Part shown: positions 20,578 through 21,508 of the stretch, one piece after another
How positions within the stretch are numbered: the stretch's first letter is position 1
Layout: each line of letters starts with the position of its first letter
Assembly (NCBI GenBank): GCA_028692765.1
Contig: JAQUWT010000011.1
Location: 1 to 32,936, forward strand
Source of the DNA: Patescibacteria group bacterium
Lineage (GTDB): Bacteria > Patescibacteriota > Patescibacteriia > Patescibacteriales > UBA12465
Direction of reading: 5' to 3'
DNA: 32,936 bases
Position numbers and translations under genes: made by a program
Notes under the pieces: generated by a model
Seen by the model: only the letters and a program-made list of their open reading frames with translations
The model's database searches: none
What the model was told of the DNA's origin: nothing

Positions 20578-20760
20578 AAAAAAATCCCATCCTCGCAAAA
20601 ACAGCATCATCTGTTTTTGCCGGGACGGGACTCAAAAGGTCTCGCGGTTCCACCCAGCTTCTCCTTTATTCCAGGAGCGCTTTCTTTTTGGGCCTGCTCT
20701 TAGGCCGCCAGTGGGCGGCGATTTCTCTCGAGCTTGGTAGACTCGACAATCGAGCGGTCA
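20578..20760 (-). ncRNA. T-box riboswitch (threonine) controlling thrS
   Basis: On the minus strand the leader contains the T-box sequence AGCTGGGTGGAACCGCGAG (20659-20641), then CGTCCC to complete the antiterminator. An overlapping terminator follows: TCCCGTCC..GCAAAAACAG pairs with CTGTTTTTGC..GGATGGGA and ends in T7 (20584-20578). Upstream, a 5-bp helix TCGAG/CTCGA (20746-20742 with 20732-20728) displays TCTACCAAG, containing the Thr specifier ACC (20738-20736) followed by A. Hairpins GCCGCC/GGCGGC and CTCCT/AGGAG occupy the stem II/III region. Uncharged tRNA-Thr would stabilise the antiterminator and allow thrS transcription. Stem I looks much shorter than in canonical T-boxes. Confidence 0.92.
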
Positions 20761-20766
20761 TTTTTT

Positions 20767-20795
20767 ATTCTATTCCTATTTTTCCAGTTTGTAAA
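20767..20795 (-). promoter_or_regulatory. Promoter of the T-box-thrS transcript
   Basis: On the minus strand, TTTACA (20795-20790), a 17-nt spacer and TAGAAT (20772-20767) place initiation near 20760, the first base of the T-box RNA. The -35 begins 6 nt after the comF stop. Confidence 0.8.
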
Positions 20796-20800
20796 GCTTT

Positions 20801-21508
20801 TTAGAGGCTTTGACTTAGTACCGCTACTAGGATGGTATCGGCGCCGGCCGTTTTTAAAGCCTGCGCCGCCGCTTGAGCGGTAGTGCCGGTGGCAAAGGTG
20901 TCATCCACTAAAATGATATTTTTGCCAGTTAATAATTCACCGCTATAGGCAAAAATTTCGTGCCGAAAAGAGGAGGAAGCTTTTGGCTGGCGCCAAGATT
21001 TTCGTTTAAGGCCTTCATTTATTAACCAGCCAGTAGTTTTTGAAACGCCGGTGGCAATCAGTTGGGATTGATTGAAGCCGCGGGCGCGCTGGCGGCGGGG
21101 ATGGAGCGGTATCGGTATAATTATTACCTCTCGTTGTTTTATTGCTTCCGGCGCTTGCGTCCAGGCAATGGCCAGACGCCGTCCGAGCATTTTACCCAGA
21201 CTTCTTCCTAAAGATTTGGCGCCTTGGTATTTTAGAACTCTAATCGCCTTAGACATGATGCTGTCGCTTGGGTATGCATAAGCGAAGATGCCATCGAAGC
21301 TGACGGTTTGATGGGTCTGCCGGCAGTTTAGACAAAAAAGACCTAGGCTTTGCGCACGGCCGCAGGCAGGGCAGAGGGCCGGAATCTTTTGGATTTGCGC
21401 ACGGCAGGCAGGGCAGAGGGCCGGTCCCGGTCGCCGGCAATTGAGACAGCTTTCCGGCAGAATAAAATTTTCCGCTTTTGATAATAAATTGATGATTTTT
21501 TTAAACAT
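20801..21508 (-). CDS. comF: ComF family phosphoribosyltransferase-like competence protein
   Basis: 235 aa. The N-terminus has a double zinc-ribbon: ESCLNCRRPGPALCPACRAQ, then ALCPACGRAQSLGLFCLNCR, eight cysteines in four CxxC pairs. The rest is a type I PRTase fold with the PRPP loop NIILVDDTFATGTTAQAAAQ and the ComF-typical IPLHPRRQRARGFNQSQLIA. ComF/GntX proteins are needed for natural transformation, at the step of pulling single-stranded DNA into the cell. A type IV pilus cluster lies 1.5 kb away on the other strand, supporting competence. It is followed by the independent thrS promoter. Confidence 0.93.
   Translation of the reverse strand: MFKKIINLLSKAENFILPESCLNCRRPGPALCPACRAQIQKIPALCPACGRAQSLGLFCLNCRQTHQTVSFDGIFAYAYPSDSIMSKAIRVLKYQGAKSLGRSLGKMLGRRLAIAWTQAPEAIKQREVIIIPIPLHPRRQRARGFNQSQLIATGVSKTTGWLINEGLKRKSWRQPKASSSFRHEIFAYSGELLTGKNIILVDDTFATGTTAQAAAQALKTAGADTILVAVLSQSL

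Follow-up and report, generated by a model that had tools for sequence, protein, structure and literature searches.

How could a leader of about 180 nt, terminator counted, sense tRNA-Thr upstream of thrS, when transcriptional T-boxes generally need a long Stem I with an elbow-binding module, fast binding being required (reviewed in Zhang 2020, PMC7583486)? The leader in question lies at 20760–20578 on the minus strand, 34 nt 5′ of thrS as read directly from the sequence, in a window corresponding to the whole stretch of DNA that was analysed (32,936 nt, contig JAQUWT010000011.1 of assembly GCA_028692765.1). The host genome (880 kb, 99% complete) belongs to the Patescibacteria (CPR), and its thrS locus is closest to records of Candidatus Falkowbacteria and of the Parcubacteria group (90–70% identity). 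According to our analysis, this leader is very probably a transcription attenuator that senses tRNA-Thr in the manner of a T-box and of which the tRNA-binding domain has been rebuilt. Its elements follow each other in the order GACCGCUCGAUUGUCGAGUCUACCAAGCUCGAGAGAAAUCGCCGCCCACUGGCGGCCUAAGAGCAGGCC...GAAAGCG-CUCCUGGAAUAAAGGAG-AAGCUGGGUGGAACCGCG...CCCGUCCCGGCAAAAACAG-AUGAUG-CUGUUUUUGCGAGGAUGGGAUUUUUUU and their coordinates are gathered in Table 1. The synthetase encoded downstream has no N-terminal TGS domain, since Pfam recovers only the SAD, catalytic core and anticodon-binding domains.

Table 1. Features of the thrS locus and its leader (positions of the window).
Feature	Positions	Strand	Evidence or remark
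Promoter -35 element TTTACA	20790..20795	-	17 bp from the -10 element
Promoter -10 element TAGAAT	20767..20772	-	15 nt before GAUUG
P1 5′ strand GACCGCUC, basal helix of the junction	20752..20759	-	anchored covariation, 57 leaders; MFE of the isolated aptamer
Conserved GAUUG	20747..20751	-	identical in 53/57 leaders
P2 specifier hairpin UCGAGU-CUACCAA-GCUCGA	20728..20746	-	present in 52/57 MFEs; covariation
Specifier codon ACC (Thr), then purine A20735	20736..20738	-	ACC in 57/57 leaders, next A in 56/57
P4 hairpin GCCGCC-CACU-GGCGGC	20704..20719	-	sequence; MFE; P4 covariation in the alignment of relatives
Conserved CUAA	20700..20703	-	52/57 CUAA; 5 CCAA by a fixed rule, some of the 5 mis-picked
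P1 3′ strand GAGC-A-GGC	20692..20699	-	anchored covariation; paired when the aptamer is folded alone
Purine string AAGCG and stem III CUCC...GGAG	20661..20682	-	RF00230 alignment; motif RRRxG...AA in 55/57 leaders
Antiterminator: A1 (CUGGG/CCCGG), A2 (GCG/CGU, GAC/GUC)	20619..20658	-	RF00230 positions 152-216; A1 covaries
Antiterminator bulge UGGAACC	20652-20646	-	UGGN reads UGGA in 54/54
Intrinsic terminator UCCCGUCC..GGCAAAAACAG/CUGUUUUUGC..GGAUGGGA and U7	20578..20630	-	hairpin of -29.0 kcal/mol
thrS, threonyl-tRNA synthetase, 578 aa	18807..20543	-	Pfam tRNA_SAD, tRNA-synt_2b, HGTP_anticodon

The 3′ half of the leader is a discriminator domain of canonical type, in which the series RRRxG–stem III–AA precedes an antiterminator carrying the T-box sequence UGGAACCGCG at 20652–20643. 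The 5′ arm of the terminator is the 3′ strand of the antiterminator, which makes the two structures mutually exclusive, and a script recovered the same overlap in 46 of 54 related leaders. A stable hairpin followed by U7 and built on that strand argues for a transcriptional output; moreover, the U7 tract ends 34 nt before the start codon, an arrangement that does not correspond to control by SD sequestration. These observations bear out the sequence-only reading of the window in its main lines, i.e., a CPR-like host, a canonical T-box with terminator, a transcriptional output and some 100 nt ahead of the T-box sequence (108 nt by measurement from the leader start). Compared with RF00230, the canonical character held for the 3′ half, where stem III and the antiterminator align to model positions 152–216 of 219, while the 5′ half found no match and the score (22.7 bits) stayed below the cut-off of 93 bits. 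Owing to this low score, standard annotation would overlook the leader: a Rfam scan of the window at gathering thresholds reported two tRNAs and no T-box leader. Other weak Rfam matches (VR-RNA, Srn266 and others, on the plus strand) were rejected as sub-threshold chance matches in A/T-rich sequence.

Variation on this half was observed among relatives. Four Thr aptamers (L172, L174, L181 and L271) keep UGGAA(C)C and have the GCG/CGU helix of A2 replaced, with a terminator-like hairpin still present on the 3′ side, and in L270 (reverse strand, ~620–260) an insertion of ~150 nt, resembling a long inverted repeat within stem III, separates the Thr aptamer from the antiterminator.

Both contacts expected of a T-box can be read against the tRNA of the same genome. 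Its tRNA-Thr(GGU) ends in ...AAACGGC-U-CCA, with U73-CCA encoded; the anticodon GGU complements the specifier ACC and the discriminator U complements the A of UGGA, a sequence invariant in the 54 leaders with a standard core. The threonine specificity proposed earlier is thus consistent with the specifier of all 57 leaders, the gene downstream and the tRNA available.

Upstream of stem III, the 57 related leaders, which precede thrS in other Patescibacteria, share a common plan, P1, GAUUG, P2, an optional P3, P4, CUAA and P1′, where P1 encloses a junction of roughly 60–95 nt containing P2 and P4, as well as P3 in most relatives, though not in the window copy. The specifier is displayed in the loop of UCGAG-UCUACCAAG-CUCGA, i.e., a 9-nt loop on 5 bp, or a 7-nt loop (CUACCAA) if a U-G pair is counted. 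Across the leaders, the loop follows the consensus Y-U-ACC-A-A (position 1 a pyrimidine in 56/57, position 2 a U in 42/57, a purine after ACC in 57/57), an arrangement that mirrors the anticodon loop of a tRNA (Y32 U33 NNN R37 N38) and makes a loop-to-loop kissing complex between the specifier hairpin and the tRNA anticodon plausible. The hairpin-loop position of the specifier, its lack of an alternative elsewhere and the absence of a normal long Stem I, all proposed from the letters, withstood the comparison of relatives, whereas the idea of a decoding domain limited to a 5-bp helix has to be abandoned, the specifier hairpin sitting in a covarying, P1-closed junction with one or two more hairpins. 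Folding gave a divided answer: the leader is more stable than its shuffled versions (z = -4.7; none of 200 equally stable), while P1 is not seen in the single-sequence MFE of the whole leader and appears in the MFE when the aptamer is folded alone. A competing hairpin specific to the window (GGCCU/AGGCC) overlaps CUAA and P1′.

The evidence for the junction comes from covariation, counted for P1 and P2 over the 57 leaders from fixed sequence anchors (GAUUG, ACC and CUAA) rather than from a structure-fitted alignment. Over five positions of P1, 236 of 285 cells are paired, against a mean of 155 and a maximum of 179 in 5000 shuffles, and each of the positions -1 to -4, with four to five standard pair types, exceeds all of 2000 shuffles; for P2, the count is 310 of 324 cells (shuffle mean 193, maximum 221). 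A MAFFT alignment of all members placed P4 wrongly, and the P3-containing subset and the anchor counts were used instead. In an 18-aptamer MAFFT alignment, 88.7% of the cells of four helices are paired, with a covariation score of 0.483, and sliding the 3′ side lowers these values to 31–46% and 0.08–0.14, respectively; both P3 and P4 show changes on both sides of the helix. The shuffle control leaves shared ancestry in, but the outcome of sliding and the variety of pair types speak against ancestry as the source of the covariation. The UAA of CUAA is also able to pair with the UUG of GAUUG, and the two likely form a small helix, supported by few sequences because its pairs are almost invariant: they do not vary in the 18-aptamer set, and outside it L135 (UUG/CAA) and L003 (UUA/UAA) fit the pairing.

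The distribution of the element was examined with two covariance models, from the training of which the window was left out. R1, built from six distant leaders of the common plan, finds the window with 57.2 bits (E 3.2e-15 in its own genome) and reaches at least 40 bits in 71 of the 111 genomes of the order. R2, restricted to P1 through P1′ with the T-box excluded, recovers the window as the sole match in its own genome with a modest 30.3 bits (E 1.1e-4). In many-genome runs, which were filtered more strictly and miss weaker members, the window included, R2 gives one match per matching genome in 49/111 genomes of the order and in 8/380 of a phylum sample. Within the order, R2 positions coincide with those of R1; one R2 match of partial score is a Thr aptamer that a long insertion separates from its antiterminator. 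R2 matched none of 65 further thrS loci, chiefly those of Firmicutes, at E<=1, and full-length Thr elements are rare beyond the order in the phylum-wide sample of 380 genomes. As judged from these matches, the junction-type T-box appears nearly restricted to this order.

At face value, so short a leader might belong to an ordinary T-box with a long Stem I that extends further upstream and has escaped notice, as longer T-boxes do occur in its own genome and in other Patescibacteria. The promoter TTTACA-17-TAGAAT makes this scarcely credible: ending 15 nt 5′ of GAUUG, it would place the transcription start at about 20761–20758, at or close to P1, so that a longer Stem I would not fit, while the ORF upstream ends at 20801 and the Stem I of RF00230 finds no counterpart. 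Promoters lie at comparable distances from GAUUG in most relatives, and a promoter-like score of at least 9.5 is reached in 46/57 leaders versus 8% of shuffles. It is hardly more probable, though somewhat less far-fetched, that the leader is a degraded or minimal T-box keeping an antiterminator but no longer specific for a tRNA, or simply the remnant of a terminator, as its great shortness and a score far under the Rfam threshold could suggest. In such a relic, one would not expect an ACC conserved throughout in a hairpin while the stem around it changes freely in compensated pairs, a UGGA bulge that is both invariant and fitted to the genome's own tRNA, or an element recurring in the order as widely as R1 indicates; an architecture conserved in 57 leaders with compensatory changes argues against chance.

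Among the known classes, the closest competitor is the actinobacterial ultrashort Stem I T-box (translational; ileS of Nocardia farcinica/Mycobacterium), with its K-turn, Stem II S-turn and IIA/B pseudoknot, here ending in a terminator by chance. The apical-loop specifier followed by a purine and the lack of an elbow-binding module are common to both, and such a specifier, already described in T-boxes with a short Stem I (Zhang 2020, PMC7583486), is not new by itself. However, the extra hairpins of the Thr leaders are nested within the basal helix P1 instead of lying 3′ of Stem I, their output is a terminator, and neither the K-turn, the F-box pseudoknot nor the S-turn was found by sequence signals. 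GAUUG/CUAA lacks the NNNGA/GA consensus in the 57 leaders, judged on sequence only, and we rejected its reading as a K-turn because the tandem G-A is missing; as for Stem II, an F-box-like CCGUUA/CCGUAA occurs in 2/57 Thr leaders versus 30/42 other Patescibacteria T-boxes. We therefore hold the ultrashort explanation to be improbable, if less so than the two preceding ones. With the long Stem I transcriptional T-boxes (RF00230; Firmicutes aaRS leaders), the Thr leader shares stem III with its purine string, the UGGN bulge with A1 and A2, a mutually exclusive terminator, a specifier fitting the regulated synthetase and a position 5′ of thrS; by the discriminator features examined, it is a T-box in mechanism. 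It differs from them in having no long Stem I, consensus K-turn, Stem II, IIA/B or AGAGA/UGxRA at a conserved place, its specifier lying in a hairpin loop inside the P1-closed junction. In particular, no distal arm is present for the elbow-binding double T-loop (AGAGA + UGxRA), and the AGAGA of the window is not conserved among relatives. The glyQS T-box is likewise transcriptional, devoid of the Stem II domain and joined to stem III by a short linker, but it depends on the K-turn and elbow module of a long Stem I, in place of which the Thr leader has a junction that displays the specifier in a hairpin loop.

The Thr element is not the only T-box of these bacteria. At E<=1e-4, RF00230 matches 121 of 362 sampled Patescibacteria genomes, 13 of them above the Rfam cut-off (L240–L252), so that long canonical T-boxes also exist in the CPR. 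The host genome itself carries one further T-box, upstream of trpB (L001 1501–1664, minus strand; contig C2:3573–3736; 52.8 bits), with a UGGC bulge, an F-box CCGTTA and a specifier UGG in an internal-loop-like position beside a short distal hairpin. In several transcriptional Patescibacteria T-boxes, namely L112, L117 and L138 (aspS), L113 (possibly Asn), L191 (ileS) and L194 (glyS), the specifier apparently lies in a small hairpin loop, e.g., UUUAG-CUGACA-CUAAA (Asp) and GGAG-UCAUCAC-UCC (Ile), and the Asp and Ile cases retain F-box-like sequences; these T-boxes would combine an ultrashort Stem I with a transcriptional output. Wels 2008 (PMC2494555) listed T-boxes in Firmicutes, Actinobacteria, Chloroflexi, Deinococcus-Thermus and Proteobacteria from a set without CPR genomes, and our search of the open-access literature, with subscription papers and TBDB outside its scope, yielded no publication dealing with T-boxes of CPR, Patescibacteria or Parcubacteria.

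Altogether, a canonical discriminator joined to a tRNA-binding half that lacks the consensus signals of K-turn, Stem II/F-box and elbow module indicates that the sensing end of the T-box has been kept and the tRNA-binding end rebuilt. In the mechanism that we propose for this attenuator, RNA polymerase would start at the base of P1 and the compact junction would display ACC in its 7-nt, anticodon-loop-like loop, with which tRNA-Thr(GGU) would pair loop to loop. The 3′ UCCA of an uncharged tRNA would then pair with the UGGA bulge, stabilising the antiterminator and allowing thrS to be transcribed, while with a charged tRNA the terminator would form and transcription would stop; tRNA binding, sensing of charging and read-through are what we infer from this architecture. 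In steadying the codon–anticodon duplex, the junction (GAUUG/CUAA, P3 and P4) may replace Stem II and the elbow contact.

The predicted junction-type tRNA-binding domain, shared across the lineage, makes these leaders a structurally new variant of T-box, of which we found no description in open-access papers. We further lean towards regarding it as a distinct transcriptional class, where a three- or four-way junction with an anticodon-loop-like hairpin takes the place of Stem I and Stem II with their K-turn, elbow module, S-turn and pseudoknot, in which case sensing charged tRNA at transcriptional speed would need only codon pairing and the discriminator. Whether any T-box can function without a K-turn has been posed as an open question (Zhang 2020, PMC7583486), and these leaders, which are short and by sequence devoid of both K-turn and elbow module, make the questions of that review directly testable. 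More broadly, the T-boxes of Patescibacteria escape the models in wide use: none of the 60 nearest genomes scanned has a T-box match reaching the Rfam threshold, which implies that synthetase regulation is under-annotated in these reduced genomes.
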